From Symbiotaphrina buchneri (lineage: Eukaryota > Ascomycota > Symbiotaphrinales > Symbiotaphrinaceae): a stretch of DNA of 64,000 nt. Shown here piece after piece: positions 27,632 to 63,038 of the stretch. Location of the stretch: positions 762,725-826,724 of the forward strand of contig BCIG01000005.1 of NCBI GenBank assembly GCA_001599915.1. Reading direction: 5' to 3'. The notes under the pieces were generated by a model, which did no database searches, had not been told where the DNA came from, and saw only the letters and a list, made by a program, of their open reading frames with translations. The stretch's first letter is position 1, and each line of letters opens with the position of its first letter. The position numbers were made by a program, and so were the translations under genes.

Positions 27632-30600
27632 ATGGGTTCCATGGGCGCCGCGCCCGCGCACTTGCGCATCGGCGTCGACGTCGGCGGTAAGCTCCCTTCC
27701 TCCTCTCCCCAGTCCTTCCTCACCCCAGCCAACCCCGGGCCCTCCCTTACCCGCCCTGCCTTGTTTGCAGCTCTCTACTAACATGCCGGGCCCTGCGGTA
27801 CAGGCACGAACACGGACTCGGTGCTGCTGGACTACTCGCAGCGGGACGCAGCGCACCGGGGCGTGATCGCGTGGTTCAAGACGCCGACGACGCCGGATGT
27901 GACGGATGGCATCGAGATTGCGGTTAGAGCCGTCACTGAGCAGGCGGGGATTGATGCGAAGCAGGTTTCAAGTTTGATTATTGGGACTACGGTGAGTACT
28001 TTTACTCTTTCTTTTTCATATCGCTGCTGGCTTGCTGGCTTCGTCCTTTGGCCGCGGGAGACGATGGTGGTTTTGCCGAGCAGGGGAGGAGTGAGTCTGG
28101 CTGACTGTGTGTGGGCTGGTGGATGTAGCACTTCATCAATGCTATTGTCGAACAGGATGAGCGCCGCCTGGAGAAGGTCGGTGTCATACGCCTGTCGGCG
28201 GGATTCTCGAGGCATGCGCCGCCGTTCGTGGATTTCCCGGCTGCTCTGAAAGAAAGTAAGTTTTGCTTACAGTCACTTCCACTGGAATTGATTTGTTGAC
28301 CTGCGTCGTAGTCATGTGCGGGCATTACGCATGGGTTGATGGTGGCCTTCAAATTGATGGCTCTCTGATCCAGCCTTTGAAGCCTGAGCAGATCATCGAG
28401 CAGTGCGCTATCTTGAAAGAGAAGGGCATTCGCAATGTGGTGATCTGCGGGATCTACTCTCCTATCGATGAGGAGTATCGCCAGGAGAAGGTGGCCAGAG
28501 ACATTGTCCTGCGTGAGATGGGAAATGTGAATGTCGTTTGCTCCCATCAAGGTATGTCCTGTTCCTTATAATTCACGTCCGGTATTGACAAACCGCAGTG
28601 GCCAACATCGGCTTTCTGGAGAGAGAAAACGCATCGATCCTGAATGCTTCGATTCTGAGCTTCGCCAAACGCACTGTGCGCGGCTTTCGACGTGCTATGC
28701 ATAGGCTGAACCTGACCTGCCCACTCTTCTTGACCCAGAACGACGGTACACTCGTCGACGCCGACTCTGCAGCAAGGCTACCAATCAGGACTTGCTCGTC
28801 CGGTCCCACGAACTCAATGCGGGGCGCTGCCTTCTTGAGCAATATGGAGAATGCACGCCAGGGTGAGAGGAAGAGCATGATGGTCGTCGACATTGGTGGC
28901 ACGACGACTGACGTTGGAGTCCTCCTGCCAAGTGGCTTTCCACGCCAGGCAGCTGCGTACGTCGATGTAGCGGGTGTACGGATCAATTACTCGATGCCGC
29001 ATGTGGAGAGCATCGGTCTGGGTGGTGGCTCGATTGTGCGTTCGGAGGGTGACAAGGTGACAGTGGGCCCGGACTCGGTGGGGTATAACATCTTGACGGA
29101 AGCGCTTGTTTTCGGTGGGAAGGTCATGACAGCCACCGATGTGGTTGTTGCTGCTGGGCGGGCGGATGATGTGGGAGATAAGATCAAGGTCAAGGGAATT
29201 TCTTCTGAAGTGCTGGATAAGGCACAGAAGCGGATCAAGAAGATGCTGGAGAACATTATTGATCGGATGAAGACTAGTCCGGAGCCCATCACGGTGCTGC
29301 TCGTGGGTGGAGGAAGCATTGTTGCGCCTGATCAGCTGGACGGAGTGGACAATGTGGTCAGACCGCCCTTCTTTAACGTTGCCAACGCCGTTGGAGCGGC
29401 CATTGCAAAGGTATGTCCTGTGACTGTTTAGTCTTTATTCTATCTCATGGGCCTAAATTATCTAGGTGAGCGGGACCATCGACACGGTCGAGAGCACGGC
29501 GACACGGACCATTGCCCAAGTCGTCGAAGAAGCCAAGGGCAAGGCGCTCGCCCGCGCCGTTGCCCAAGGCGCCCAAGCCGACAGTGTGCGGACGGCCGAA
29601 GTCGACACGATCCCTCTGCAATACGTCGCGAACCAAGTACGCGTCATCATCAAAGCGGCCGGCGACCTGGACATCCACCGAATGAGCGAGCAGCAAGCGG
29701 GCGCCGAGGCGGCGGCCATGGAGAGCGAAGACGACCAGCCCGAAGCGGTCAAGGTCAAGAAGGAGAAGGTCAAGGAGGAGGCGGCGGAGTTTGATATCGA
29801 GGCGTATAGACCCCGGATTGTGGATAGTGAGTGGTGGGTCTCCGAGAAGGACCTGGAGTGGATCGCGGCGGGGAATTATGTCCTGGGCTGTGCAGGTGAG
29901 TTTTCCCTGGCGTTACCTTAATGAGTATGGCGAGGCTGAAGTGAAAGGTGGTGGCTCGCCGTATCCCGAGTTCCTCCAGTTGCGGGAAATGGTGCGTCAG
30001 GGATATACAATGAGGATTGTGGATCCGTACGACCTCCCTGCAGACGGTATAGTTGTGTGGGGCGGCCATATGGGCAGTCCACAGGTCAGCACTGAGAAGC
30101 TGCCTGCAGACGAGTAGGTCCCATGAATGTTGAGGTTCAGCGATAGGTGATTGCTAATGGATCCAGGTTCGCGGAAGCCATCGCGGATCTGAACGAACAC
30201 TTGGGCCTCAAAGAATTTGCCGCAACCATGAACGTCGAGATCGGAGGCGGAAACGGCCTTCAGTCGCTCATCATCGGGTCTACGAAGTACTTTAACAAGC
30301 CAGCCGTCGACGCGGATCTCATGGGTCGAGCGTATCCTACTGTATGTTTACTCTGCTCCCTCGATCTGAGATCTTGAACCCCCACTCACACTACCAGTTC
30401 CATCAAATCACGGTGAACGTCTATCAGTCGGACCACTCCCCCCTACTGCCATCCGCAATATCCAGTACGTCCCCTGCCCCCGCCCTCAACACACGCTACG
30501 AGTACTAACCACCTCCAGGCGGCGATGGCAACACCGTGATCATGACCAAAGCCAAAGACGACACGTTCATCGACCGCGCTCTCCGCGCCGCCTGCGGGGA

Positions 30601-31368
30601 GATGGGTTCGCACGTGGGCATGGCCTCGAACCCCGTGAGCGTAGAAACCGTGCGCACACAAGCCGTGCTGCGGACTTTCTCGCTCTCCTGGCGCATCGGG
30701 CGCGCGGTCGCGCGGTCGCAGACAAACATCAGGGGCGTGGCGGACGCCATCATCAACGAGGTTGGCGGGCCCGAGACGGCGTGCAAGCTGTTCGAAGGCA
30801 AGATCGTTAGTGTTGAGCGCCGGCTGTTTAAGGGCCATACGTATGGCGAGATCGTCATCGAGCCGCTGGCGGAGGATGAGGAGGAGGGTGGGGCCGGAGC
30901 GGGAGGGGAGTTTTCAGGGAGGGTGATGATTCCGTTTAAGAATGAGAATCTGTTTGTGAGGCATACGGATGCCGCGGGGAAGGAGGCGGTAAGTCACTGG
31001 GGTCGTAATGCAAGGGCGTTGAGGAGTTGAACGTGGTCTAATTATTTGTCTGTGACAGATGCTGGCGACGGTGCCGGACCTCATTGCCGTGTTGGACTCG
31101 CAGAATGGCCAGGCGCTGGGTGTGCCTGACTACCGCTATGGCTTGCGGTGCTTCGTGCTGGGCATCACGGCGTCCCCGCGGTGGACCGATACCCAGCGCG
31201 GCCTCGACTATGGCGGCCTGAAGGCTTTTGGGTAAGTTTTCGATCCTGATATGAATATGAAACTTAATATGTTGCTGAATATTTTCCGGTTGTAGGTATC
31301 CCGACATACCATATGTGCCCGTGGGAGTGTACAAGGAACCTAAGAGCGTGATCCAGGAGTACAGATAG
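27632..31368 (+). CDS. Hydantoinase A/oxoprolinase-type protein fused to DUF917
   Basis: Twelve exons: 27632-27686, 27804-27991, 28129-28255, 28312-28551, 28599-29410, 29466-29895, 29948-30113, 30167-30341, 30398-30464, 30519-30988, 31059-31231, 31296-31368. Phases agree and give 991 residues. The first 600 are HyuA: RIGVDVGGTNTDSVLLDY at the N-terminus, SLIIGTTHFINAIVEQ, the ATP/metal block MMVVDIGGTTTDVGVLLP, and IGLGGGSIVR. From about WWVSEKDLEWIAAGNYVLGC to the end is DUF917 (CAGGGGSPYPEF, DPYDLPADGIVVWGGHMGSP, GDGNTVIMTKAKDDTF). The HyuA fold opens cyclic amides such as N-methylhydantoin or 5-oxoproline with ATP; DUF917 is of unknown function. Substrate of the fusion is unknown. No signal peptide, so cytosolic. 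An acidic/Lys-rich linker (KVKKEKVKEE) joins the two parts. Confidence 0.92.
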
Positions 31369-45338: not shown

Positions 45339-46868
45339 CTAAGCCAACTGACCCCTCTTATACGGGAACTTCTCGCGGAAGTGCACAGCGATGTCCTTGC
45401 GGGTCGTCACCCATACGTCTGGCTTCGAGGCTACGTACTCGACGAACTTCTTCAGCGCGGGGAAGCGCCCTGGTTTGCCGGTGATGCGGCAGTCTACGCC
45501 CAGGATCGGGAGTTGTTAGCAGTCAGGAGAGGATGGTGAAGGGATGAATTGGAGCGGAGATGAAGAGCGAGAGGGGATGGGAACGGGGAGGTGAGGAGGG
45601 TGGAAGGACGAAAGATGAGAGGGGAGGGGAGGAACGGGAAAGGAAGGGGAGAGGGGAGGAGGGGGGAAGGAGTGGAAAGTAAGGTAAGGGCAAGGATAAA
45701 AGCAAGAACAAGAGGGAATGAGGAAACACGGGGTAAAACTCACGCAACCCCACAGTCATCATCTTCGGCCTGCCCCTCACGCCCTCCTCATACAGCGTAT
45801 CAAACGCATTCTTCAAATGGCCCTCAAAATCCCCCGGCCCACCCCACCCCTGTGGCGAATGGAACTTCAAGTCATTACAATCATACGTATACGGAATCAT
45901 CAGCATGCCCTTTGGCTCCTTGCTCTCCTTCTCCGCAGGCACGTCCTCCCAGTACGGGATGTCGTCCGCGTAGCAGTCGCTCTCCCACAGCAAAGGTAGG
46001 TTCTGCTCGGAGAAGACTTCGTGCAACAGGCCTTTGGAGTGGGGGGACAGGCGCCCGTAGTACCACCCTACTGGTGCGCTGCCCGTGAGGGATCGGATGC
46101 AGCTGATTTGCCGCTCGATGTAGGTTTTTTCTTCCGTCGGCGACATCGAGTGGTAGTCGACCCATCTGTTGCTTCTCTTAGCCGTGATCTCTCCTGCCGC
46201 GGAAAAAGAGGAGAACCCAAGGAGTTCCAAACAAGAAAACAAAGTCAAACAATTCAAAAGCAGCCAATTTTCATGAAAAGTCACAGGCATACCGATAAGC
46301 ATGACTAGCAACCTCATGGCCACCCTTCACACAGGCCTCGGCGACAGCCGGGTTCTTCTCCAGCGCCTGGCCGACGGCATAGAAGGTGACGGGGAACCCA
46401 TGCGCCTCGAACAGGTTCAGCAGCCGCCACACGCCGACGCGCGAGCCGTAGTCGTAGTCGCTCTCGGTGTTCAGGCTGCGCACGCCGACTTTGGATCCGA
46501 TGTTCGATTGCTCCCACAAATGGCTCTCGCTCTGTGCGTCGCCGTTGGAGACGGTGCGTTCGGCGCCCTAGTGTGCGTTAGACAGGTCGGAAGGAACTGT
46601 ACTCTTCTCGGGAATGAGCGTTTCGCTCGAGCTGATAGATATGCCGGCGAATAGTGGACAAATGTGAGAAGCGCACCTCTTCGTAATTAATCACAAACGA
46701 GACCGCGATCTTCGCGCCCTTGGGCCACTGCGGATCCATGCTCTCGCGCCCATAGCCGATCAGGTTCCGGGGAAAATCGTATTTGGTGTCGCGCAGCGGG
46801 TCGACGCTCGGTGCGTCCAGACATGGCGCGATGCCCGCTGGGTTGTTGCTTTGTACAGGGACTGACAT
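45339..46868 (-). CDS. Polysaccharide-deacetylase-fold protein of the PuuE allantoinase type
   Basis: Four exons, 46677-46868, 46293-46567, 45744-46165, 45339-45493; phases agree, 347 residues. Order of blocks: PRNLIGYGRESMDPQWPKGA, AVSFVINYEEGAERTVSNGD, YDYGSRVGVWRLLNLFEAHG, FYAVGQALEKNPAVAEA, GHEVASHAYRWVDYHSM, RLTG-like SLTGSAPVGWYYGRLSP and LHCRITGKPGRFPALKKF. These match PuuE, a metal-independent allantoinase in the NodB fold: the usual TFDD metal motif is replaced by NYEE and the second motif is SHAYRW. Known PuuE proteins hydrolyse allantoin in urate breakdown; some fungal relatives are only annotated as chitin deacetylases. No signal peptide, which favours an intracellular enzyme. The third intron is 250 nt and pyrimidine-rich. 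Confidence 0.87.
45540..45715 (+). repeat. Polypurine tract inside an intron
   Basis: The plus strand is nearly all G and A; on the coding (minus) strand this is a C/T tract that fills most of the third intron of the PuuE-like gene. It lets the open frame run on without stops as a Pro/Leu/Ser-rich text, which is not real protein. Confidence 0.8.
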
Positions 46869-47294: not shown

Positions 47295-48826
47295 TCAGAA
47301 ANNCCCNCCCCCCGGAACCGCCACAAACAGCACACTTAACCCCGCCGCGACCATCAGCGCCCACAAGCACGCACTGATCACAATCCGATTATGCACGACC
47401 CTAACACCCTCCTCCTGGATCCACGTATACCGCTCAAACACCTTCCTGACCACATTCCTCCGCTTATACCGCCCGACCCAGCCCTCGCTCTCCCAGCCTT
47501 TATTCTCCGCCCCGAACGGCTCCCACGCGCGCGCCGTTGCGCTGCTGCCTTTGCGCATGCTGCCCCCATCGACTGAAGAGGCCGCGTACGCGAGCGTTTT
47601 CTCGTCGTCGTCTTGTCCTGCCCCCGAGCCTGAACGCCGAGCCGGAGAGGAGGAGGCGGAGGAGGGGGAGGAGAGCAGGCTTGAAGTCTCGGCGTCCATC
47701 TCCCACGGCCGCAAGTCGCGGCCGCCGAAGGCATACAGGCACAAACACAGGCCCTTGAGACTACTCACCAGCGCCGCGGTTCCTCCAAACCAGGCCAGCG
47801 CCGCAAAGACGCGCCACCACCTACCCAGCCCACTCAGCGTCAGCACGAGCGCCAACACAAACCCCGCGAGCAGCATGCTGATCCCGACGCCCCGCACGAA
47901 GAGCACGCGCGGCGCGTTGGCGTTGCAGATGGCCCAGCGCACGAAGTTCGGGTGGGACTGGTGGCGCAGCGTTGTTTCGATGGTGGGCAGCAGGGAGGCG
48001 AAGGCGGAGGGGTGGGTTGTTTGTTGTAGTGCGTGCAGAAGGGTCAAACGGGTGCGGTGCGAGATGTTGAGTTCGCGTGCGGAGGAGGGGACCAGGTACG
48101 TGCTGATTGCGAGGGCGATTTCTTGCCGGAGAGGCTGGATCGTGACTGGAGTTTGTTAGTCCTGGAGAAACCTGGAGGAGAGCAAGGGGGGATTTTGGAA
48201 AGGAGGAGAGACGTACAGCCTTGCCACTTCACGCCCGCATCAAGACACGCCTGCTGTGCGATCTCGCTCGCGTTCCCGCGGACCCCGCTGTCCATGCTCG
48301 TCACCCCACTACGGGCCTGGCCGCTCAGCGGGGACACGGGCCGCTGGTCCCCCGCCGACAGCGTTGGCTGCAGCTCCAGCTCGATCTCGGCCGTAGCCAG
48401 CGCATCCCCCTTGCTGGAAGGCTTCCTACGCAGATCCGGGGCCGCGGTGGCGGGCGCGGGAGGCTTCCATTCTGGCGACAGAGCTTTCTCGGATGCAGGT
48501 AGGGCGTTGAAGCGCGCTGTGTAGGCCCGCAGCCACAGGTAGAATTGCAGGTTCTCGGCGTCGTGCTCGATGTAGAGGTAGGCCATGAAGTCGTCGAGGG
48601 AGCAGGGCTGTGCTGCTGGTCAGTATGGGGAAGTCTTGCAGGACAGGAGTTAGGAGAGCATTACGGGAAGAGTCTCCCCATTGATAACACGGTCGAAAGA
48701 TAGCTCGGCCGGCACGGCGCTGGGATTGCCCTTGGTGCGCTCGAGGTAGCGCGCGCAGGCGCCCGGGTTCAGCGGTCCTGGCTGCCGGTTGACGTAGTCC
48801 GGCCGCTTGTAGAAGAGGATGGACAT
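47295..48826 (-). CDS. rax1: RAX1-like protein: RGS fold plus C-terminal membrane segments
   Basis: Three exons, 48665-48826, 48217-48607, 47295-48145; phases agree, 467 residues. The start MSILFYKRPDYVNRQPGPL, then VPAELSFDRVINGETLPPCS, LDDFMAYLYIEHDAENLQFY and LWLRAYTARF are typical of fungal RGS proteins of the RAX1 kind. A Ser/Pro linker splits the RGS fold, which resumes at GVKWQGFTIQPLRQEI and runs to about SHPNFVRWAICNANAPRVLF. Three hydrophobic segments follow (ISMLLAGFVLALVLTLSGLG, FAALAWFGGTAALVSSLKGL, ISACLWALMVAAGLSVLFVA). Yeast Rax1 marks division sites; in moulds the family affects growth and stress responses. Three N bases at 47302, 47303 and 47307 fall in the last codons, so the final residues are uncertain. 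Confidence 0.85.
47302..47307. other. Unresolved bases (N) in the assembly
   Basis: N at 47302, 47303 and 47307 beside a C homopolymer, inside the last codons of the RAX1-like gene. This shows that base calls in homopolymers are not fully reliable in this window. Confidence 0.95.
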
Positions 48827-50242: not shown

Positions 50243-51246
50243 TCACCTCAAATCCCCCTCCCTCAACAACCGCATCTGCTCCTGAATCCACTGCCTACCC
50301 GCCTCTTCCACCATCTTCACGACCTTCTCATCCCTCACAATCTCCCTCAACCGAAACGGCTCCGGGACATCATGGCCCCTGCTGACCGCTTCCCGCGCCA
50401 TCACACGCTGCTCCCAGGCTTTCAAATTCGGGAACTCTTCCATATCAATCCCCGAGAATGCCGCCACCGCCACCCACGGGTACTGCATGATGTCTGCCAT
50501 CGAGAACTTGTCGCCGACAAGGAAGTCCCGGCCACTAGATGCTTGCGCGGCGAGGCGGGTCTCGAGAACGTGGTAGAGGCGGCGGGTCTCGTTGACGTAC
50601 CGCGATACGCCGTATGGCATGGAAGAGGTGGCGTAGTGGAGGAAGTGGATTGCTTGGCCCTATTTTCACATCCTACACGTTAGTCCTCCTGTTCCGCACC
50701 CTGACAGGTATACCCTCCAGTCCAACAGTAACCCATCAACGGTCTTGAAGAGCAGTGGACGACAAAAACGCACCTGCATCGGCCCCACACCGCCCGTCTG
50801 GAGGAACAGCCACTGCACCATCTCCCAATACTCCGGTGTATTCCGCGGAAAACTAATCTTATGCTCCGGATCGTAGTTCTCCGCCAAGTACAGCAGGATC
50901 GCGCCGCTCTCCATCAGATTTATCGTGTTCGACTGGCCCCCGGTTCCCGCGGCGCCAGCGGGGCTGCTCTTGTCGGTGAGCGCGGGGATCCGCCCGTTGG
51001 GGTTGATCTGGAGGAACCATGGCTCTTTTTGCTCGAGTTTGTTGAGAGCGAGTGGGCGGACCGTGTAGGGTAACTGTGAGAGAAGGGCGTGGTGTTAGCT
51101 GGAGGATTGGAAGGACAGAGGGGCGGTGGGATGGGATGGAAGGTGGGAGCGGGAGCGGGACGCACGCCGAGTTCCTCGAGCGCGATGGAGATTTTGCACC
51201 CGTTGGGCGCTTGCGCCGTGTAGAGAATCAGTTCGGGAGTCGGCAT
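50243..51246 (-). CDS. Glutathione S-transferase, Ure2p-like
   Basis: Three exons, 51166-51246, 50774-51073, 50243-50659; all joins fall between codons, 265 residues. The N-terminal thioredoxin fold reads LILYTAQAPNGCKISIALEE, LPYTVRPLALNKLEQKEPWF, NPNGRIPALTD with the cis-Pro, and the glutathione-binding SGAILLYLAENYD. The C-terminal helical domain holds EYWEMVQWLFLQTGGVGPMQ, GQAIHFLHYA and FLVGDKFSMADIMQYPWV (the N-capping box). This is the GstA/Ure2p-type class of fungal transferases, cytosolic, acting in detoxification of electrophiles. A loop with SPAGAAGTGGQSNTINLMES before the SGAI motif is somewhat longer than usual. Confidence 0.92.
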
Positions 51247-51637: not shown

Positions 51638-54600
51638 CTAAGATGCCGCCTGCGCAGTGACAAAAGCATGAAAGCTCCCTGTAGCCCTCGGAAAGAATTC
51701 CTTGACCGTCTCCACCACAGTCTTTCCCTGCTGCTCCTTCCTCTCGACCGGCGTTCCCCAACCACCACCACCCGGCGTATGCACCACACACCTATCGCCG
51801 GTCTGCATATCAATCTGGCCCCGGGGTCCCAGGTTCAACCACGTATACGACCCATCCGCATTCCTCTTCGCCCAATAATTAACACCGTTCAAGCCCGGCT
51901 CGCCGCCATCCATGCCATACGGGCGATGCACCCTCCTCTCCGTAATCAGACTAAACGTCAGCGGCAGCCGACACTCAAAGTCCCTAACAACGCCACAGCC
52001 ACCATTCCAGCGTCCGCGGCCACCACTGCCTTCGCGGATACTGAACTCGCGGATCAAGATCGGGTACCGCCGTTCCAGCACCTCGGCGTCCGTCGTGCGC
52101 GTATTCGTCATATGCGTATGCAGCCCGCTAGCCCCATGGCCCCGCGGCGTCGCGCCCGCCCCCCCACAGATCGTCTCGCCGTAGTTATACGCGAACCCTT
52201 TCGGCGGGGTGCCATCTGGCCCAGGCAGCCCGCGGCCAAAGAAGCCGAAGCAGTTCATGCAGCCCTGGGAGGCAGCGGCGGCGCGGAAGGCTTTGAGCAG
52301 CAAGTCAACGAGGCGCTGGGAGGTGAGGGTGTTGCCGCAGCAGACGGCGCGACCCGGGGACGGGTTGAGGAAGGTGTGTTTCGGCAGGATGATGCGCGTG
52401 GGTGTCAGGCAGCCTTGGTTCAGCGGGATGTCGGCGCCGATGAGCAGCCGCATGGTGTAGATCAGTGCCGAGTAGGTGATGGCTGGCGGCGCGTTCATGT
52501 TGGATAGCATCTCGCACGTTGTGCCTGTAAAGTCGAACGTCCCGAACCCGGTCTCGTCGATACTGATGGCGACGCGCATCGTCGACCCGTTGTCCATGTA
52601 GTCCTCGGCACGCAGAACCCGCCCACCGAACTTCTCCCGCGTGGACTTGAGGTAGTTCCGCACGGACACGGCGGCGTTGTCTTTGATCTGGCTCATGTAG
52701 AAGTGCACGACCGACTGCCCGTACTCGTCCATCAGCGCATCAATCAGCGCGCGACCCTTATTATTCGCGGCAATCTGCGCTTGCAGATCCGAGAGATTGT
52801 CCGCGAGCCGTTTGGCGCCCGTGCAGCCCGGGTATTTGCCCGGCTCGAGAAAAATGGCGCAGATGCCCTCTTCGTCGAACTTGCCGTCGCGCACGAGGAA
52901 GAACGACTTGATCGCCGCGCCCTCGTGCCACAGCTCGGTGGAGTTCGGCGGCATCGATGTGCCCCCCAGTCCGCCGATGTCCATGTGGTGACCCCTTGAT
53001 GCGGTGAAGAATACGACCTTCGACCCGGACTTATCGAAGACCGGTGTGATCACAGTTATGTCTGGGAGATGTGTCCCGCCCGACTCGGGGTGGTTGGACA
53101 CAAGCACGTCTCCGGGGCGGAGCTTGTCGCCATGAAGCTCTTGTTGGTAGCGGACGGCATAGCTCATAGAACCTAAGTGGACGGGCACATGTGGTGCGTT
53201 GGCAACCAGCTCCCCGTCTGGACCGAAAATGGCGCAAGAGAAGTCTAGGCGTTCCTTGATGTTCAGCGACAAGCTGGTCCGCTGCAAAGTGCGGCCCATC
53301 TAGTCATTGTTAGTTTAGTTGGATAGTGACAACAGCCCAGGCAAGCGTGCATACCTGTTCTGCTATCCCCATAAACCGATGTCCAAAGACCGATAGCTGC
53401 ACTGGATCAACTGTTTGTGGCTTCTCGACCTTCTGGGCCCCCGAGCTTTTGTCAAGGAGGTCAATAAGCACGTGTGCCTTGAGGATTCTGGCTCTTGCTC
53501 CGGGAATGACGACAATCGTCTGCGTCTGATCGATGATGACAGCGGGTCCATAGATGGTGTTGCCCGCGGACAGACTGTCGAGAAGATACACGGGTGTCAT
53601 CTGGAAGCCAGCAGCTGGGAAGTACACCTTTGACTTATGAGCCGCGGACTTCGCAGTGATCTCGAAAAAAGCCGTCTTCTCAATCTCGTCTGCAAGCTGC
53701 ACGCTGTCGGAATTGACTTCACCACTCCCACCGGTGGCGCGAACGCGGAGATCGTCCACGATCACTTTTCGAGAAGAGGGAAAGGTGAAGGCCAATTCAC
53801 GTAGATGATCCTTTTCAAACGCCGCGCGGTAGGACTTGTAGTCGACGTCTTCCGGTTCGAGGATCATGAGGGACGTATCCGTGCCTTCATACCGCAGGTG
53901 AAGGTACGTCTGATAATTAATATCCGGTTCGCGTATACCCTGATCCAGCAGCCCCGCTCGCACCTGCTCCTTCAACGCACCAATAGTCTTATAAAGCCTA
54001 GGCAACGACTCCTCCGAGAGAATCTCACTGCTGGGCTCCTGCGCCTCCTGCACGACCTCCGCGAGCGCCATGCCATACGCCGAGAGGATACTGGAGTACT
54101 TATGGATAATGACCCTACTCATACCCAGCTTCTTCGCCAGCTCGCATGCATGCTGGCCACCAGCGCCACCAAAGACAGCGAGATTGTGCGCGCCCGTCTC
54201 GTAGCCGCGGGCCTCGGTGATGGCCCGGATTGGCCGCGCCATGGATTCGTTGGCCACGTCGATGAACCCCGCCGCGACTTCCTCGGGCGTCATGTGGCGG
54301 CCCGTCTCGGCGTTGATGGATTGCGTGAGGGAGGTGAATTTTGAGGCGACGATGGAGGAGTCCAGTGGCATGTCTTCGGTGGGCCCGAAAATGGAGGCGT
54401 CCGAGGTAGAGGTTGGCGTCTGTTACGGCGAGAGGACCACCTTTGCGGTATGAGGCGGGGCCTGGATGTGCTCCTGCGCTCTTCAAGATGTCAGATTTCG
54501 GCGGGCTAAATGGTAATACTCCAAAGTCTGGATGACTTACCTGAGGCCCAACTCTGAAGAGACCATTCTCCCAGAACAAGATACTGCCTCCACCTGCAGC

Positions 54601-55963
54601 GACGGTGTTGATATCCAGTTGCGGGCTCTGAATCACAACCCCAGCAGTAGTCGTTTCGAATACACGTTCTAGCTCTCCGCCGAAGCGACTGCAGTCGGTA
54701 CTGGTGCCGCCCATATCAAAGCCCACAAGAGGCGTCTTGCCATCGAAAGACGTCCTGGCGTATCCAACAACGCCGCCGGCGGGGCCACTGAGTATACCCT
54801 TTAGGCCGCTGAACTTCCGATGCGACACCAGCCCACCATCTGACTGCATGAACTCGCATCTCACGCCGTCAAGGTTGCCATCTTCAAATCCCTTTGCGAA
54901 CGTCTCGACGTATTTCTTGATCTCGGGCGTAAGATACGCATCCGCCGACGCAGAGCTGCCGCGCGCCAGCATCTTGATCATCTTCGCGCCGACATTGTTC
55001 GATAGGGAGATATGCTTGAAGCCCAGCTCGAGCGCAATTTCGGCGAGCCGCTCTTCATGCGCTGGGTATACATACGAATGCGCAAAACACACTGCAAGCG
55101 CGTCGATGCCTTGTTCTTTGATCTTCGATAATTTTTCCCGGGCTTCTTGCTCGTTGAAAGGCTTGAGGATCCTGATGAAGTCGCCGGTGCTGCCCTTGAC
55201 TAGCTCGCCGGGGATCTCTTCAAGCACGGGGCGCTGGTCCTTCGGTCGAGGATCCTCGTCGAACTCTTCAATGGTAACTCGCTCGGAGATCTCGACGACG
55301 GCGCTGTATAGTGTCTCGGGCTTGCGGATATCGAGGTCGAAGAGCTTTGGTCGCGATTGGTTTCCGATCTCGATCAGGTCCCGGAAACCTTCTGTGACAA
55401 CTAGCGCATGCTTTGTTCCCTTCCTCTCGAGCAATGCTAGGACACTGTCAGATATCTGGGTAATGTATTAAATGTCTTTTCTACTTTCGACGTACCATTT
55501 GTTGCAACTGTGGTTCCCATACGTATCGATTGGATGAGGTTCTTGGGGATTGGCGCCGAACGAGGGATCGTCGTCCCAATGACCTGCTCCAGGACTCTGC
55601 GGATTCCTATCCATGTCAAGCAGTTTAGTGGATGAGTCCAGTGAAAGTACATTTGGCAAACGGAGAAGTCGAATTCACCTTCTGACGGCGCATCGGCATA
55701 ATTGTCTGGATCTACCGACAACAGTTTCAGGATGATATCTGGCTGTCCAGGGACCTGTTGCATGGTTAGATCAAAAATGAGCCAGTATATCATGAATGTT
55801 ATTACCTGTGCCCATATGTCACAGAATGTACCGCCACGATCTAAGAACCCAGCAATTAGTAGTTGAAGAACGACTCCTGGAGAGTCAGAAAGTCGATTCG
55901 CATACCAATAGCAATCTTGACACATTTTGAAGACAAAGAGTCCTCAACCCTGTGAGGCGCCAT
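51638..55963 (-). pseudogene. 5-oxoprolinase (HyuA-HyuB fusion), broken by a small deletion with frameshift
   Basis: ATP-dependent opening of 5-oxo-L-proline to glutamate in the cytosol. Exons: 55906-55963, 55806-55840, 55679-55754, 55496-55606, 54541-55436, 53355-54480, 51638-53299; intact length would be near 1,328 residues, usual for the family. HyuA marks: [63 protein letters not shown]. HyuB marks: PVHLGSMSYAV, VSNHPESGGTHLPDITVITP, TASRGHHMDIGG, TPGGGGWGTP. Exon 6 is not a multiple of three. Family members read NLFLGRLxPxYFPxIFGPxED; here NLYL and SIFGPTED stand in different frames with only ten bases (54393-54402) between them, so about 23 bp are missing. Everything downstream is open and conserved. 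It is divergent from the transporter at 56915. Confidence 0.88.
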
Positions 55964-56914
55964 GGCGTCTATGGCTGACAATTATCACGTCGGAAGTGGA
56001 GAGGATTTAAGTCTCGAGTGGAGATAAGGGATCGGGAATCCTGGAGTAATGCGGCACACGAGTTGAATTATTGGTCTTATGCTGATACTGCAAATCAATA
56101 CATCTTGCGATAGAGATTCATTAAACTCATGGACAATCTGCCCCATATATCAGTTCCTAGGACATTTGCCCTATTGTTTTTCGGACGAGTATACCGACTA
56201 GCCGTCGGCAGACTGAAGACGCATGAAGCCTCCATCGACCTTCCCAGTTGTACCCAGCTATCACACTGATAACTGCTCCGCCTTCCGGATTTGTCGCTAT
56301 CTCGGAACAAGTGAGACTAGGATGATATCGGACAGATAAAACAGAAGGTCGGGACGACAAATCGCTCCCCCGCTCTGAACAGTGCTGATCCTTGCATGAT
56401 GCCTCGGGCAGTCTGGATGTCGAGCGTCGCCGTCCCGACCTGCCCTTTCTACACCGTTATCAGTGCTAGTCGCTCTAACATTCCCGCTAGTCCTCGGGCC
56501 GGCCAAAAGCCACCATATCGCCTCCACCTGCTCTGCGTACGCAACTTGTCTCTTGGCTGCATGGGGCCAATGATAAGCATCGCAATTCGGGTACAATCAA
56601 TCGAGGAGCCACCGTCTCTATCAATGAAACGAGCGGGGTCAAGCAGGGAGCTAAGGGGAGGACAAACCTTCGAGGAGCCTGGCTATCGATTACTGATAAG
56701 CCGTATCAGGAGCACCATTTCACGGAGCGGATAGGACATCGCCTATCTCGAACAAGAGAGGGTGTGACACCACCAGTACGAAGTTAGATGACCCCTTCTA
56801 TAATATATATAGAGACACAGTTTCCTCTGCAGATCATCGGCCCAGCACGTATATCACCCCTGTGCATCTTGTCAATTTCTCTTATATATCAATTTTATTC
56901 ACGCACGCTTCACG
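55964..56914. promoter_or_regulatory. Divergent promoter, oxoprolinase / Dal5-like transporter, dense in GATA sites
   Basis: TGATAA (either strand) at 55982-55987, 56267-56272, 56457-56462, 56571-56576 and 56694-56699; further HGATAR words at 56022, 56258, 56297, 56334, 56683 and 56743. Five TGATAA hexamers in about 950 bp is roughly ten times chance. Fungal AreA/NIT2 GATA factors bind this core and turn on nitrogen-scavenging genes when good nitrogen is short. A TATA-type run (TATAATATATATA, 56799-56811) stands about 105 bp before the transporter ATG. Function is inferred. Confidence 0.6.
56799..56811 (+). promoter_or_regulatory. TATA-type element of the transporter gene
   Basis: TATAATATATATA about 105 bp before the start codon at 56915; the only strong TATA-like run between the GATA cluster and the gene. 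Confidence 0.5.
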
Positions 56915-58566
56915 ATGTCTTCCCACGAGGACAAAGCCGAGAGCATCACGACCTCCCCCGTCGACCATGAGGTTGGGGAGGTAAGCAAGCATAAAGATGT
57001 CCTCGCTGGCCTGGACAAGAAAAAAGTCGATGAGGCCGCCGACTTCCTTGCCAGCGTTGGGCCCTTCCCGCCCATGACTCCCGAGCAGGAAAAGAAACTG
57101 GTCAGGAAGATTGACCGGTACATGATACCTCTTGTGAGTCAGGGACTGTTGCCATGAAGATTCACCTTCTATCGCTCAATACTGACACGTTTATAGTTGA
57201 TGTGTCTGGCCATCCTCGGTGCCGTAGACAAGGTCGAGCTTGCTACTGGTGCTTTGTATGGATTCAAGACAGATAACCATCTCGTGGGTCAGCAGTACAG
57301 CTGGTTGGGTAGTATTCTCTCCATTGGTGTAAGCACCCCTTTCTCCCTTACCACCATACTGCATACTAACTCACTCGCAGATGATCGTCGGTATCTGGCC
57401 CTCGTCCTACCTCATTCACCGGCTTCCTTCCGCGAAATACCTCGCCTGCTGTTCCATAGCCTGGTCGGCCATCGCGCTCTTCATCGCTGCCGCCAAGAAC
57501 TTCGCCGGGCTCATGGTGCTGAGATTCCTCATGGGCGCGCTCGAAGCTATCATCTCTCCAGGCCTGGCTCTCATCATCTCCTCATTCTGGAAGAAGACCG
57601 AGACACCTCCCCGCAACGCCATCATCCTGTGTTGTTTCTCGTCCGTGGTCAACGGGTTCTGGTCGTGGCTCGTCGGCGAGATATCCCCAGATGCAGCTTT
57701 GAAGAGATGGCAGTATCTCTACCTCATCACCGGCAGCATCAATCTCGCCTACTCGCTCTTTCTGTTCTGGTACCTTCCCGACTCGCCGATGAATGCCCGC
57801 TTCTTGACGACCGAGGAGAAGTACCATGCGGTCCAGCGACTGGCAGAGAACCGCACCGGCTTGGTCAACCACGTCTGGAAATGGGACCATGTCCGCGAGG
57901 CGTTCCTGGACGTCAAACTTTATTTGATCTTCTTCTTTTACATTGCAGTCAACATCCAAAACGGTGGACTGATAACTTTTGGCGCGATCATCATCAACAA
58001 CTTGGGCTATAACGCACAAACGAGCGCGCTGCTCTCAATTCCTAACGGGGTCATCTCCACCATCGCTGGCTGGACGTTCTCATACTTGGCAATGAGATGG
58101 CATAACCGGCGTTGTCTCTCCACCGCAATCTCGGTGCTCCTTCCTCTGTTAGGAACCGCGTTGGTCTACGGTCTGCCACGCTCAAACATCCCAGGACAAA
58201 TGGCAGGTTTGTATCTGATGTATTGCTACTGGGGTAAGTCTATCACCTTCCAAGTCCTGCGTCTGCTCTCTAAAATCACATACAGGGCCCTACGCAACCG
58301 CCAACTCCCTCCCGCTAGCCAACACCGCCGGCCACACCAAGCGCACCATCACCTACTCCGCTCTGAACGTCGGATACGCCGTCGGCAATTTGATCGGGCC
58401 ACAGACCTTCCGCGCGAACCAAGCGCCTGCCTATACCGGCGGGGTGATTGCAATGATATGCTGCTATTGCGCATCGATCTTCATCATCCTGGCGTACTGG
58501 TTCGTCAGCTACATGGAGAATAACGCAAAGGACAAGAAATATGGACAGGTGGAGACAGCGCTCTGA
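56915..58566 (+). CDS. MFS anion:cation symporter, Dal5/allantoate-permease type
   Basis: Four exons, 56915-57133, 57197-57328, 57381-58233, 58286-58566; phases agree, 494 residues. A cytosolic N-terminus ends in KLVRKIDRYMIPL, the usual lead into helix 1 of this family, followed by LMCLAILGAVDKVELATGAL. Further marks: FLMGALEAIISPGLALIISS (helix 4-5, the ALEA..SPG signature), SSFWKKTETPPRNAI, FLFWYLPDSPMNARFLTTEE and ANTAGHTKRTITYSALNVGY (helix 10, the NxxGxTKR signature of the anion:cation symporter family). Twelve hydrophobic segments. Members carry allantoate, ureidosuccinate, nicotinate, pantothenate and small peptides. Next to oxoprolinase, a cyclic amide or its acid is a sensible substrate, but this is inference. 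Confidence 0.92.
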
Positions 58567-59130
58567 TGGGGGAGAGTGTTGAGGGCTTGGTCAGGGAGTA
58601 TCTGGATAAGACGGATAAGCAGCAGGAGAAGTTTAGGTATACTACTTAGGTGACGCTGGATGAAGTGCGTGTGTGATTGTTGTGCAACGGCTGGGGTTCC
58701 TACAACGAGCGGTAGTTTTTGATGGGCTCTAGATTTTATAACTGTTTGGGTGATGCGATCGCGATCGGTATGCGAGGCTTTTTACAATCTCCTAGAGGTA
58801 GAAGACAGACAGCAATGCCTATGAACATGATGTCAAGATTGTCCAGGGTACGATAAAGTGGTCTAGAATGCTCGGTCAAGATTGAGTCCCAAGTAGACAT
58901 GTCCAATTAGAGTGTTCTTCTGTGTCTGATACCAATCTTCTCATGTTTTGATCTTCTTATCTTGATCTCTCCGTCTCTCAATTCTTATCCCACAAGCATA
59001 CGTTTAGGTATGAACATTGCTACAGCTCTGCACGTATAATGATCGATTCGTGCGATGTGACATATTTCGCCACGATAAACAGAGGTCTAACGCCTTGAAG
59101 TTAAAAATTCCCTAGACCAAGCATACGTGG
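58567..59130. other. Convergent intergenic region
   Basis: About 560 bp between the 3' ends of the transporter (plus) and the Zn2Cys6 regulator (minus). Nothing coding seen. Confidence 0.55.
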
Positions 59131-61142
59131 CTACATCAAACTAATCCTCCTTCCTCTCTTGACTACAATATCCTGCAACATCTCCCAGCCACAACTCCTC
59201 GGCTCCCTCAGATCCCTCTGCCTCCAAACCTCCTGCACCACAATCATCGCCTCACGGACCTGGCTCAGCCGGCGGGTCTCCTGCAGCGCGACCAGAATCT
59301 CCAGCACGAGCTTCTTATCCTCGTCTCTAGCCGGCTGCACGCCCATGGCGCCCACCACAAACAGCGGCCACAGCACGGTATGGGTGCGCAGCCCGATCTG
59401 CGGCAGCAGCGCCAGAATGCGCGCCGTCAGACGCACGATGTGCGGATGATGCGGCAGCGAGCCGTCGAGGCGCGCGTGTAGGTACAGCAGTGCGGCGAGG
59501 CGTTTCGTCTCGGCGATGATCCGTAGCTCCTCGGCGGATGAGGACGGCAAGGGCCCGTCGCCGGTCGTCTCGGGGATGTCCTGGTTCAGCAGGTGCAGTC
59601 TCCGCTCCACGAAGTCTCGCCTTTGCTGAAAGGTGGAGGGTGCGAGCTGGGCTCTTTCGGCCCCGAGGTCGGAGATTTCGGATAATAGGACCATGAGCTC
59701 CTGGGAGCAGCCGTACAGTGTGTGGATTGTCCGCGAAGTATTGCCCTCTGGGATCCACTTGACGAAGTCCCCTAAGGGCTCATTGCCCCAGTGCGAGGCC
59801 GTCTGGGCGACCGCCTCGTGTGCGGCGAAGTAATTGAGGAAGAAGTCACGCAGGGCGACCTGTTCGGATGTGACGCCCTGCTGGAGTTCTGGGAGACTAC
59901 GAAGGCTGCGAGCGAATCGTAGGTGTGATTTCCAGGCCGCGGAGCACTTTTCAGAGACCTGTGTAATATGTTAGGATTTTGAAGGAGGATTGCACGCGAT
60001 ACGTACATCGAGGAAGCAGAGCATGACTACGGTGGCTAGGATCTATTCCCAGCCTTGAGCCCAGCTGTTCCGCTGCTTGCACCCCTTGATATCCTTCTGC
60101 AGATCGTTTAGTGCTCTAGCAAGGTAACCACAGAAGTGGGCTTCGAAGCGTCGGTCATTGAATAACCGAAGTTGGTTGGCGGACGTGGCTAAGATGGTGT
60201 ATAAGAGTGATTTGGTTGGAGAGAACATGGAGATCGTGGCGACGGTTAGGTAGGGGTTGTGCTCCGTTAACAAGCTGCACCTGGGACTGATGTAGGACAC
60301 GAAGTAGTCCAGGAGGTACTGTTCGGTTGATGTTAAGTTGAACGGATCGATAGATGGGCAGGGGCTGAGCATGGAAGAGCTTGTAAAGTCAAAATCCACT
60401 TCGAAGCTGTTGTAAAGACAAAGACTATCAAAAGACGATGACCGTGACCTCGATGTACTCGAAGCAGCCAATGTGAGGTCCATGGTGCCATCGGCATAGT
60501 GTTCCGGCATTATATCGTACGTAGATGTGGTGGTTGAGGAACCGACTGAAAGGCTTCTTTCTCGACTCCATTGACTTGCGATGTCCACGACATCGTTGAG
60601 TATCTCTTCATGCTCTTGTGTCAGGAAGTCATGGTATGTTGTGTTCAAGAACATCCAGCCCTCGATCCTTGGTGTCTGCACGGGAAAGAAACCTTCTGTT
60701 TCTGAGAAGTCACCGCTGATGGAAGGGCTTCTGTTACTGCAGTCATGAGCGCCCCGTTTCTTTGACCATGTCCCTGGATGCGATGTCAGCATACCTCTGT
60801 CGCAGGGCCATCGATATTATCAAGATCGATCGTCCCTACCTGTGCGTCCGAGAGCGATGCCTCTTGACAAGGCATCTTCCTTCCAGAGCAATCTGACGCC
60901 GTAACCACACTCAAGGCCCAATCGGTAGCACGTCGAGCACACAGGTCGCTCTTCTATTCAACAAGTTAATAATGGTCAATTGGTTGAGCTGGCATGCTCT
61001 TACCACTGCATTTTACTCTCCGTTCTAGTTGGCAAATGTCAGCTGATAAGAAGGATATTTGCGTTTATAAGGATATACCTCTACAGGTCCAACAACCACT
61101 GCGACAGCGTTTATCATCTTGCCTTCGCCTCGGCGATGACAT
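59131..61142 (-). pseudogene. Zn2Cys6 transcription factor with an in-frame TAG
   Basis: Exons: 61079-61142, 61004-61024, 60840-60953, 60007-60773, 59131-59958; phases agree over 598 codons. The binuclear zinc cluster is perfect: Cys17, 20, 27, 34, 37, 44 (C-x2-C-x6-C-x6-C-x2-C-x6-C) in GCWTCRERRVKCSEERPVC and on, encoded across the first three exons. The rest is the fungal-specific regulatory part (TEQYLLDYFVSYISPRCSLL, ILATVVMLCFLD, GWEML). A TAG at 60043-60045 (codon 310) stands directly between QGWE and ILATVVML, a spot that is continuous in relatives; no intron of right phase removes it. The product may be a 309-residue truncated DNA binder, or this is a base error. It sits between the transporter and the FAD oxidase and is the obvious candidate regulator of the neighbourhood. 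Confidence 0.85.
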
Positions 61143-61226
61143 TGTCTTAGAGTAGTTGCAGTCTCTTGCTGGTTGCCTCGTAGCAGACAGACTAGTTTTT
61201 GCCGGCAGGCAGTCCTCCGTGACTCC

Positions 61227-61241
61227 GTTATCACAGATAAC
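61227..61241. promoter_or_regulatory. Inverted GATA pair GTTATC-ACA-GATAAC
   Basis: Perfect six-base arms with a 3-nt spacer, about 85 bp before the regulator ATG. Each arm contains HGATAR on one strand. A likely paired binding site for a nitrogen GATA factor; binding is inferred. Confidence 0.5.
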
Positions 61242-61274
61242 ACGCGTCACGCGTCAGGGATGATCTGAGGGTGG

Positions 61275-61288
61275 CCCCACTAGTGGGG
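61275..61288. promoter_or_regulatory. Perfect 14-bp palindrome CCCCACTAGTGGGG
   Basis: Fully self-complementary without spacer, in the promoter between the regulator and the FAD oxidase. It could bind a dimeric factor; CCCCAC/GTGGGG halves resemble C2H2 zinc-finger sites (for example CreA SYGGRG). The assignment is loose. Confidence 0.4.
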
Positions 61289-61705
61289 TGAAGCTGGGAA
61301 GATAGTTCGAATTGACTCTCGCCTCGACCTGACCACATCTGTGGGGGGAAGCATCGTTATTGGTATGTCATAGTGTGATTGATAAAGATATAGATATGAG
61401 TTTCTGATTTAGCAGGTGTGCGGCAGTTGAGCATGAGAGGGGTCCAGTATCGGCTGTGCGGCGATCGCCTCGACCTGCCTCGGTGTCGCCCTAAATCGAA
61501 GGCTGCGAACTTTAGCCTTTGGGACTACTCCTGCTATTTTTTGTCTATCTAAGTATAGGCCAATCTTGCGTGATAAACGCCCGAATATGATGAACTTGTT
61601 CGAAGAGGCCTGCACCTTTTGGTAGATAGAGGCATGAAATGCTATTCCTGAGCAGTGAAGTATAAGGGCCGTTGATCATAAGAGGGTGACGGCAACAAGA
61701 ACGCC

Positions 61706-63038
61706 ATGGACGCGGCAATCTTGATCCTCGGCGCCGGAACCTTTGGCCTGTCCACGGCATATCACCTTGCCCTTGCGGGCTACAAGAACATTACAGTCCT
61801 TGAAAGAGACGAGGCGGTCCCTTCGCGATATTCCGCTGGAAATGACTTAAACAAGATCATACGAGCGGAATATCCAGATCCATTCTATGCTGATCTGGCA
61901 TTGGTATGTCACCGACGGCCAACCCGACACCATCCTCTGCGGACTCCGCTGACAAGACCAGGAAGCAATCAAAGAATGGAAGTCTGCTCTATTCGCCCCG
62001 TATTTTCATCAAGTCGGGTACCTCTTATGCACCTCCGACCACGCCCCGGAAAGGACGAAGACTTCCCTCCAGAAGTCCCTGAAATCAATCTCCAACCACC
62101 CAGCTTTTGCCGACGCCATAACACCCATAACCGACCGGGAAGCCATTCGCAAAGTCGCGCCTGTCTACGACGGATCTATGAACTGGTCCGGATACTTCAA
62201 CAAGCTGGCCGGTTACGCTCATGCCGCAGACGCCATGGCCGCCTTATACAGACGCTGCGTCGAGCTGGGCGTCACATTCAAGCTAGGCGACGCCGCGACC
62301 GAGATCTTGTACGAGGGCACCAAGTGCACTGGCGCAAAAACAGGTTCGGGCAAGACCTACAAAGCCGACACCACCATCATCTGCCTGGGCGCGCATGTCT
62401 GCTCTGTCGTCCCCAGCCTCAGCAAGCAGATCACCGCCAACGGCGTCGCGGTGGCACATATCCAGCTGACCAAGGAGGAAGCGGACAAGCTGAAAGGAAT
62501 CCCAGTGACGTACGCTCGCGATCTGGGGTTCTTCTTCGAGCCGGATCCGGAGACCCTGCTTTTCAAGATCTGCCCCGCGACCGGTGGCTGGACGAATTAT
62601 GGAAAGAAAAGCGCGGCTGTCAAACGAACGGGGAGAGTCTCGCTCCCGCCCTGGTCTGAGCAGGAGTACGCGTTTATCCCCGCCGAGGACGAACACAAGG
62701 TCCGCCAACTGCTGCGCGAGACGTTGCCGTGGTTGGCGAATAGGCCGCTGGTGCACAAGAAGTTGTGCTGGCTGGGCGACTCGCGGGATACGGATTTCAT
62801 CATCGATTTTGAGAAAGGAAAGCAGGGGATCTTGGTCGTAAGTGGGGACTCGGGACATGGGTATAAGATGCTGCCTGTGCTGGGCAAGTGGGTGATGAAG
62901 GTGCTTGAGGACGGAGAGCAGACGATCAGCAGGTGGAGGTGGAAGGAGTGGGAGGATGAGAGCGAGAATGATATCGATTGGAGGTTGTCGAAGAGTAGGG
63001 ATCTGAGTGAGTTGGAGATCTTCAAGGCGAGTCTTTAG
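61706..63038 (+). CDS. FAD-dependent amine/amino-acid oxidase (DAO fold; fructosyl amino acid, sarcosine or pipecolate oxidase group)
   Basis: Two exons, 61706-61903 and 61962-63038, 424 residues. The N-terminal ILILGAGTFGLSTAYHLA (residues 5-22) binds the ADP of FAD; VLERDEAVPSRYSAGNDLNK follows, with the SAGNDLNKIIR stretch typical of this oxidase group. The C-terminal block holds HKKLCWLGDSRDTDFIIDF, whose Cys335 is in place to bind FAD covalently, and the second FAD block SGDSGHGYKMLPVLGKWV. Members oxidise secondary amines or amino acids, releasing peroxide and, after hydrolysis, an amine. Substrate not decided by sequence. The last 40 residues are charged and Trp-rich. Divergent from the Zn2Cys6 gene across 560 bp, so possibly co-regulated. 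Confidence 0.9.

Follow-up and report, generated by a model that had tools for sequence, protein, structure and literature searches.

A GATA-rich cluster of oxoprolinase, transporter, regulator and FAD oxidase genes in Symbiotaphrina buchneri, with two broken reading frames

The window analyzed here is a 64,000-nucleotide stretch of the genome of the ascomycete Symbiotaphrina buchneri (assembly GCA_001599915.1, contig BCIG01000005.1, positions 762,725 to 826,724 of the forward strand). At positions 51638-63038 it carries four genes encoding a 5-oxoprolinase (-), an MFS transporter (+), a Zn2Cys6/Fungal_trans_2 regulator (-) and an FAD amine oxidase (+). Gene models were built with a splice-aware gene finder and then refined by hand, and domains were assigned with Pfam. 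The genes form two divergent pairs: oxoprolinase (51638-55963) and transporter (56915-58566) are separated by 951 bp, and regulator (59131-61142) and oxidase (61706-63038) by 563 bp. This arrangement agrees with a preliminary description of the sequence, and the roles it gave to the four genes hold at the family level by Pfam, TIGR and structure-sequence matches. The frame lesions described below, in the oxoprolinase, the regulator and a neighboring amidase, are new relative to that description.

The 5-oxoprolinase-type gene (51638..55963, -) is defined by its gene model, Pfam domains, paralogs and a structure-sequence match. Its exons lie at 55906-55963, 55806-55840, 55679-55754, 55496-55606, 54541-55436, 53355-54480 (within which the frame is broken) and 51638-53299. 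The predicted protein combines Hydant_A_N (PF05378), Hydantoinase_A (PF01968) and Hydantoinase_B (PF02538, 4e-196) in one chain, which is by sequence an OPLAH-type domain layout. Eukaryotic 5-oxoprolinases of this layout, presumably the OPLAH/OXP1 type, share the single-chain arrangement, whereas the frame of the gene studied here is broken. The genome encodes three further full-length paralogs and a truncated one (C19); identity to the four is 48-79% over matched stretches and about 50-60% over most of the long ones.

The oxoprolinase frame is not intact through the segment GAHPGP..TVTDAN..LGR..IFG. At 54393..54396 (-), between ..DANLYLGR and IFGPTED.., the assembly has 4 nt where the paralogs have 24 nt, and the spacing from TDAN to IFG is 31 nt, compared with 51 nt in all four own-genome paralogs. 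With either of two paralog proteins as the reference, frameshift-aware spliced alignment requires one frameshift in the cluster gene. The paralogs C10, C27, C21 and C19 require none, C10 being frameshift-free only with a GC-AG intron, which it seems to use, and counting one frameshift otherwise. The truncated product is predicted to span 513 aa, 420 of them in the right frame. Single introns that preserve the frame number 24 and cost conserved sequence. One of them, a 121-nt intron (54420..54540, -) that joins the GTAAGT donor at 54540 to the nearest frame-keeping acceptor, was selected by the gene finder in place of the usual intron at 54481-54540; it keeps the frame open and deletes the conserved segment SAGAHPGPASYRKGGPLAVTDANLYLGR. 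This choice is no evidence for such splicing because the same segment was dropped from the C27 paralog, the raw frame of which is open.

A second lesion lies in the regulator (59131..61142, -; exons 61079-61142, 61004-61024, 60840-60953, 60007-60773 and 59131-59958). An in-frame TAG at 60043..60045 (-) interrupts the Fungal_trans_2 domain, so that the zinc cluster (Zn_clus, 3.7e-11) and Fungal_trans_2 are recognized by Pfam as two pieces flanking the stop, the latter scoring 6.3e-7 before it and 5e-49 after it. The predicted 309-aa product keeps the zinc cluster and lacks most of Fungal_trans_2. Four GT-AG introns could skip the TAG in frame, all with weak donors and each at a loss of 31-35 codons. 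Eight GC-AG introns would also do so, two of which have a GCAAG donor and cost 15-18 codons. Such introns could avoid the stop, and one is apparently used in the oxoprolinase paralog C10, so the regulator may be made in a form with a deletion. A similarity search of the genome returned only weak matches to this protein.

The two genes transcribed from the plus strand are open. The transporter (56915..58566; exons 56915-57133, 57197-57328, 57381-58233 and 58286-58566) encodes 494 aa with an MFS_1 domain and resembles anion:cation symporters, matching TIGR00893 at 1.7e-49 with 168.8 bits, below a 395-bit cut-off that was made for prokaryotes. Its best eight non-self stretches in the genome share 28-39% identity with it. 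The oxidase (61706..63038; exons 61706-61903 and 61962-63038) encodes 424 aa with a DAO domain, requires no frameshift and belongs to the MSOX/FAOX family. It is 36.9% identical to amadoriase II (PDB 3djd) over the aligned part; the alignment is poor at the C-terminus, in the region of the fructosyl-pocket residue Arg411. In 3djd numbering, D50, N52, K53, K276, C335 and K368 are kept, and we take Cys335 to be the covalent-flavin residue. Two residues of the fructosyl pocket differ from those of amadoriase II, Glu280 being replaced by Ala and Trp236 by Val. Both are present in three FAOX paralogs of the same genome, in a comparison that aligned five family members out of nine other matched loci. 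Asn52, Lys53 and Lys276 have been assigned a proton-relay role in amadoriase in the part of the source consulted (PMC5459902). Because the two fructosyl-binding residues are absent, the oxidase is probably not an amadoriase, and the catabolism of Amadori compounds (fructosyl amino acids) was rejected as the first choice for the role of the cluster.

Both shared promoters are rich in the GATA motif HGATAR, as expected of an AreA-controlled catabolic cluster. The oxoprolinase/transporter promoter (55964..56914) holds 13 sites in 951 bp where 4.1 are expected (p=0.001, the floor of the 1000 dinucleotide shuffles used), and the regulator/oxidase promoter (61143..61705) holds 7 in 563 bp where 1.9 are expected (p=0.004), including a close inverted pair at 61228 and 61235. 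At 13.7 and 12.4 sites per kb they are the two densest of 19 intergenic stretches scored, the next reaching 7.2, which bears out the clustering of GATA sites reported earlier. The 500-bp promoters of the oxoprolinase, transporter, regulator and oxidase contain 8, 6, 7 and 7 sites, compared with a median of 2 in 55 promoters of the same genome, a set in which copies of the cluster genes are counted, two having a misplaced start. Beyond the cluster genes, at least 6 sites occur in two of the 55, both belonging to transporter paralogs. The motif is short, and several other promoters of the window are mildly enriched: that between a quinone reductase and the amidase (6 sites, 1.7 expected, p=0.007), that of an RGS-like gene (8, 3.3 expected, p=0.024) and that ahead of the HyuA fusion (6, 2.5 expected, p=0.027).

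Other candidate genes of nitrogen metabolism cited in the preliminary description are present by profile matches. A protein encoded at 45339-46868 scores 346.7 bits against TIGR03212, below the cut-off of 424.6, and is by sequence a relative of PuuE allantoinase rather than a certified member. Pfam also recognizes a fusion of HyuA with S-Me-THD, the domain that we take to have been formerly named DUF917, and the amidase has a one-base frame slip near 22370, within a short run of A. Nothing ties these three genes to the four of the cluster. Allantoin and hydantoin were set aside as substrates, their sole support being these neighbors at distances of about 5, 20 and 28 kb; they are unsupported as the ring that is opened because the enzyme belongs with the 5-oxoprolinases. 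No telomere is evident near the contig end, where the last 1700 bases contain two TTAGGG and one CCCTAA.

Comparable gene sets have been reported in other organisms. One predicted cluster of Aspergillus steynii, likewise a eurotiomycete, includes a block of five genes listed together as a 5-oxoprolinase, a fructosyl amino acid oxidase, an allantoate permease and hypothetical protein(s) (PMC8709101). In the portion of that article consulted, the block is drawn within a biosynthetic cluster, the text gives no gene order, no function is proposed and no regulator is named; the comparison is one of annotation text. Among the literature matches listed, this source, as far as the excerpts go, is the only one to place the oxidase, permease and oxoprolinase together, and a search for "thiohydantoin desulfurase" gave no match. 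The basidiomycete Cryptococcus neoformans has two 5-oxoprolinases (CNAG_06872/06873) and a Dal5-like permease (CNAG_06875), both reported in the available excerpt as up in the VNI lineage (PMC7067042), and the permease is described as genotype-specific (PMC7067042, PMC5979944, PMC5484541, each in part). Their near-consecutive locus tags suggest adjacency. CNAG_06874, described in these excerpts as subtelomeric, resembles HpcH/HpaI aldolases and has no counterpart among the four genes here; the annotation text seen mentions neither an oxidase nor a Zn2Cys6 gene. In Corynebacterium glutamicum, the pxpTABC/pxpR genes allow growth on 5-oxoproline as a nitrogen source through a transporter, an ATP-dependent 5-oxoprolinase and a dedicated regulator that is divergently encoded; according to the sections seen, they differ in having an APC transporter, PxpABC, a GntR regulator and no amine oxidase (PMC13274462). 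At the level of annotation text only, the two fungal sets speak against the counter-case named in the preliminary description, in which relatives neither conserve the neighborhood nor share induction of the genes.

We put at about even the chance that the cluster is a GATA-controlled module for scavenging nitrogen from a lactam or an N-substituted amino acid, and that it is decaying in this strain. Under nitrogen limitation, a GATA factor of the AreA type and the local Zn2Cys6 regulator would induce all four genes from the two shared promoters. A small nitrogenous carboxylate would enter through the transporter, and the ATP-dependent oxoprolinase would open its lactam ring to yield glutamate or an N-substituted form of it. 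The N-substituent would next be stripped by the FAD oxidase, or a secondary amine oxidized in some other way, so that H2O2 is formed and amino nitrogen becomes available to the cell. With a frameshift in the assembled oxoprolinase and a nonsense codon in the regulator, and with the transporter and oxidase frames still open, decay is the most likely state of the module. The single catabolic route for cyclic amides proposed earlier is supported in part, by the family roles, the promoter GATA sites and the A. steynii listing, and is weakened in that the two lesions make it probable that the module does not work here; nothing biochemical links the oxidase to the oxoprolinase.

The lesions could instead be sequencing or assembly errors (or, in the regulator, an unusual intron), all four genes being intact in the organism and the module functional. 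The assembly contains Ns (47302-47307, and one in the C10 paralog), the amidase slip affects one base of a short A run, the remainder of the oxoprolinase and regulator is well conserved, and the GCAAG-donor introns could bypass the regulator TAG. However, homopolymer errors do not typically remove about 20 nt or create a lone nonsense codon, and the genome gives no impression of being rich in errors. In nine of nine CCT/Hsp60 chaperonin genes (22 of 23 matches), breaks between matched pieces measure 41-55 nt once overlap is allowed for; internal stops in six CCT pieces were read as introns run through (examined in two genes), and several CCT gene models dropped conserved stretches. No unexplained break was found in these genes, in the four oxoprolinase paralogs (C19 being truncated) or in the three FAOX paralogs, the last of which, like the cluster oxidase, need no frameshift in frameshift-aware spliced alignment. 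We regard intact genes as a tentative reading, plausible enough to be kept in view.

Other explanations concern the role of the genes. It is improbable that the oxoprolinase serves glutathione turnover through the gamma-glutamyl cycle with the adjoining GST gene (50243-51246, -; PF02798/PF00043), the remaining three genes being incidental neighbors. Fungal 5-oxoprolinases have been linked to glutathione (PMC7067042, in the part seen), but the GATA-rich divergent promoter ties this one to the transporter, no HGATAR site lies between the GST gene and the oxoprolinase, three other full-length paralogs exist, and the A. steynii text available names a permease and an oxidase and no GST (PMC8709101). 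The same source, as excerpted, counts the block within the 17-gene ochrindole A region of A. steynii IBT 23096, as if such genes formed the edge of a secondary-metabolite cluster; yet its figure boxes the block's five genes as missing from A. affinis, which retains 12 genes of the cluster. No PKS, NRPS or prenyltransferase gene was recognized among the gene models of the window or in the 8 kb that follow, where Pfam scans covered all window genes except eight and just one gene further on; a P450 and an FAD monooxygenase are present. We find this explanation very improbable. An N-methylhydantoin or creatinine-like route, in which ATP-dependent ring opening is followed by a sarcosine-oxidase-like step, would suit the best solved-structure match of the oxoprolinase (7hk5, an N-methylhydantoinase, 2.3e-96) and the sarcosine oxidase/FAOX family of the oxidase. 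We give it little credence: the oxoprolinase resembles its 5-oxoprolinase-type paralogs much more closely, no N-carbamoylsarcosine hydrolase gene was recognized adjoining it, and the oxidase matches sarcosine oxidases weakly (3.2e-11).

A bolder version of the scavenging module is unlikely, though worth stating. It would be a mobile fungal four-gene pathway for N-substituted 5-oxoprolines, in which import and ATP-driven lactam opening are followed by oxidative loss of the N-substituent, catalyzed by a new branch of the MSOX/FAOX family distinct from the amadoriases. Species would acquire and lose the genes as a unit, and the copy seen here would be decaying. Its substrates would be cyclized N-alkyl or glycated glutamate or glutamine from decaying plant matter.

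The broken frames caution against assigning this strain the pathway by gene names alone. If the module is real, it would suggest that a gene block has been wrongly included in a predicted secondary-metabolite cluster of Aspergillus, and both an orphan oxidase branch and one of the genome's extra 5-oxoprolinase copies would gain a class of substrates to test.

The 64,000-nt window covers positions 762725-826724 of contig C5 in a 23.4-Mb assembly of 82 contigs, and its genes were modeled with a purpose-built splice-aware gene finder followed by manual refinement. Its genes and introns point to a filamentous fungus. The preliminary description had placed four neighboring genes here in two divergent pairs, an observation that is correct: a putative oxoprolinase (51638-55963, minus strand) faces away from a transporter (56915-58566, plus strand), and a regulator (59131-61142, minus strand) from an oxidase (61706-63038, plus strand). 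The transporter matches MFS_1 in Pfam, with TIGR00893 as its top subfamily, which makes the label Dal5-like fair at family level; the regulator carries a zinc cluster and a Fungal_trans_2 domain (Pfam). A GST gene (50243-51246), also on the minus strand, is the next gene past the oxoprolinase. At 47302-47307 the 3′ end of another gene contains three ambiguous bases (NN and N).

Both shared promoters were said to hold GATA sites, and this was borne out. The oxoprolinase/transporter promoter (951 bp) contains 13 matches to the GATA-factor pattern HGATAR where 4.1 would be expected (p = 0.001, the lowest value attainable), and the regulator/oxidase promoter (563 bp) contains seven against an expected 1.9 (p = 0.004); the 3′-3′ gap between the pairs has three (2.4 expected). 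The two promoters rank top in density among 19 intergenic stretches scored. Enrichment is mild in the common promoter of a quinone reductase and an amidase (6 vs. 1.7 expected) and in the promoters of a HyuA fusion gene (6 vs. 2.5) and an RGS-like gene (8 vs. 3.3). Per 500-bp promoter the four genes have 8, 6, 7 and 7 sites against a median of 2 among 55 promoters, a sample that contains the cluster genes themselves, two of them with a wrong start. Outside the cluster only two of the 55, belonging to transporter paralogs (L045, L046), reach 7, which suggests that these may be under GATA control as well. The promoter argument is stronger than a sequence-only reading could tell.

The oxidase is nearest to fructosyl amine oxidases (amadoriase II structure 3djd, 5.6e-60), with sarcosine oxidases more distant (3.2e-11). 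The alignment examined combined it with 3djd and with five out of nine further loci that it matches in its own genome, residues being transferred onto 3djd numbering by our own mapping. D50, N52, K53, K276, C335 and K368 are retained, W236 is replaced by Val and E280 by Ala; Tyr60 and Arg112 align ambiguously. Three FAOX paralogs (L022, L023, L024) retain W236 and E280 and lack K368. In one report, fructosyl-moiety recognition in PnFPOX is assigned to Trp235, Glu278 and Gly372, conserved in amadoriases, and the proton relay to Asn56/Lys57/Lys274 (PMC5459902). Because of the two substitutions, we read the oxidase as an amine oxidase of this family, probably without the amadoriase pocket.

The oxoprolinase has the full single-chain-type domain set (Pfam), and N-methylhydantoinase is its top solved-structure match (2.3e-96). 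Four paralogs, on contigs C10, C27, C21 and C19, share 48-79% identity over matched stretches, with more distant relatives on C5, C31 and C3; all four are full length except that on C19, which is truncated by the contig start. All four have 51 nt from TDAN to IFG, vs. 31 nt in the oxoprolinase of the window, and this 20-nt shortfall shifts the frame. Frameshift-aware alignment to the C21 and the C10 proteins places a single frameshift at 54393-54396. None of the four paralogs requires one in spliced alignment, provided that C10 takes a GC-AG intron; scored without such introns, C10 counts one. An apparent GC-AG intron does lie just 5′ of the GGTSTD motif of this paralog (C10:77871-81950; L012, L020). 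If the ordinary intron (54481-54540) is used, the gene is predicted to encode 513 aa, of which 420 are read in the correct frame. A longer intron (54420-54540) preserves the frame but deletes a segment that the paralogs retain and that in C19 is interrupted by an intron.

Two further lesions were found. The regulator contains an in-frame TAG (60043-60045) within Fungal_trans_2, and the domain resumes past the stop (5e-49). All four GT-AG introns that would avoid it have weak donors; two of eight such GC-AG introns have a GCAAG donor, so a shortened regulator could possibly still be made. The amidase named as a context gene is present (21788-23795) as two Pfam-matching parts, between which an apparent one-base frame slip falls near 22370, judged against the residues expected there for the amidase family. 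Gene models alone cannot rule out lesions, because they splice around them. Among nine CCT/Hsp60 control genes all breaks are intron-sized, as judged from the match table for 22 of 23 matches, the remaining one being left out as it sits in a much longer frame, that of another gene. Six pieces of these genes contain internal stops, which were taken to mark introns; the inspection covered two genes. The window oxidase and three of its paralogs likewise need no frameshift. The lack of unexplained breaks in controls and oxidases indicates that sequence error is not pervasive in the assembly, although it may account for the oxoprolinase, regulator and amidase lesions.

The HyuA gene (27632-31368; 991 aa by model) joins Hydant_A_N/Hydantoinase_A to a complete S-Me-THD (formerly DUF917) protein and weakly matches thiohydantoin desulfurase models. 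This genome has additional PF06032 loci on contigs C5, C4 and C14. Elsewhere on C5, locus L067 (847330-849029) carries a tandem pair of TTAGGG units, some 100 bases short of the contig end and beside apparent coding sequence.

The same gene combination is described, with no gene order stated, for another Eurotiomycete, Aspergillus steynii, and A. affinis is reported to be without five genes of the A. steynii cluster (PMC8709101); this joint absence suggests that the oxidase/permease/oxoprolinase combination is separable. Papers on Cryptococcus neoformans report 5-oxoprolinases CNAG_06872 and CNAG_06873 and the Dal5-like permease CNAG_06875 as up in VNI isolates (PMC7067042), the permease as genotype-specific (PMC5484541), and the intervening CNAG_06874 as HpcH/HpaI aldolase-like and subtelomeric (PMC5979944); that these genes are adjacent is read from their locus tags. 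Bacterial pxpTABC/pxpR works alike for 5-oxoproline (PMC13274462). A literature search for such a module gave no account of its function among the matches listed. As assembled, the locus is predicted to be without a working ring-opening enzyme and has probably lost its regulator too. That the four genes form a nitrogen-scavenging module is plausible, with chances we judge to be about even.
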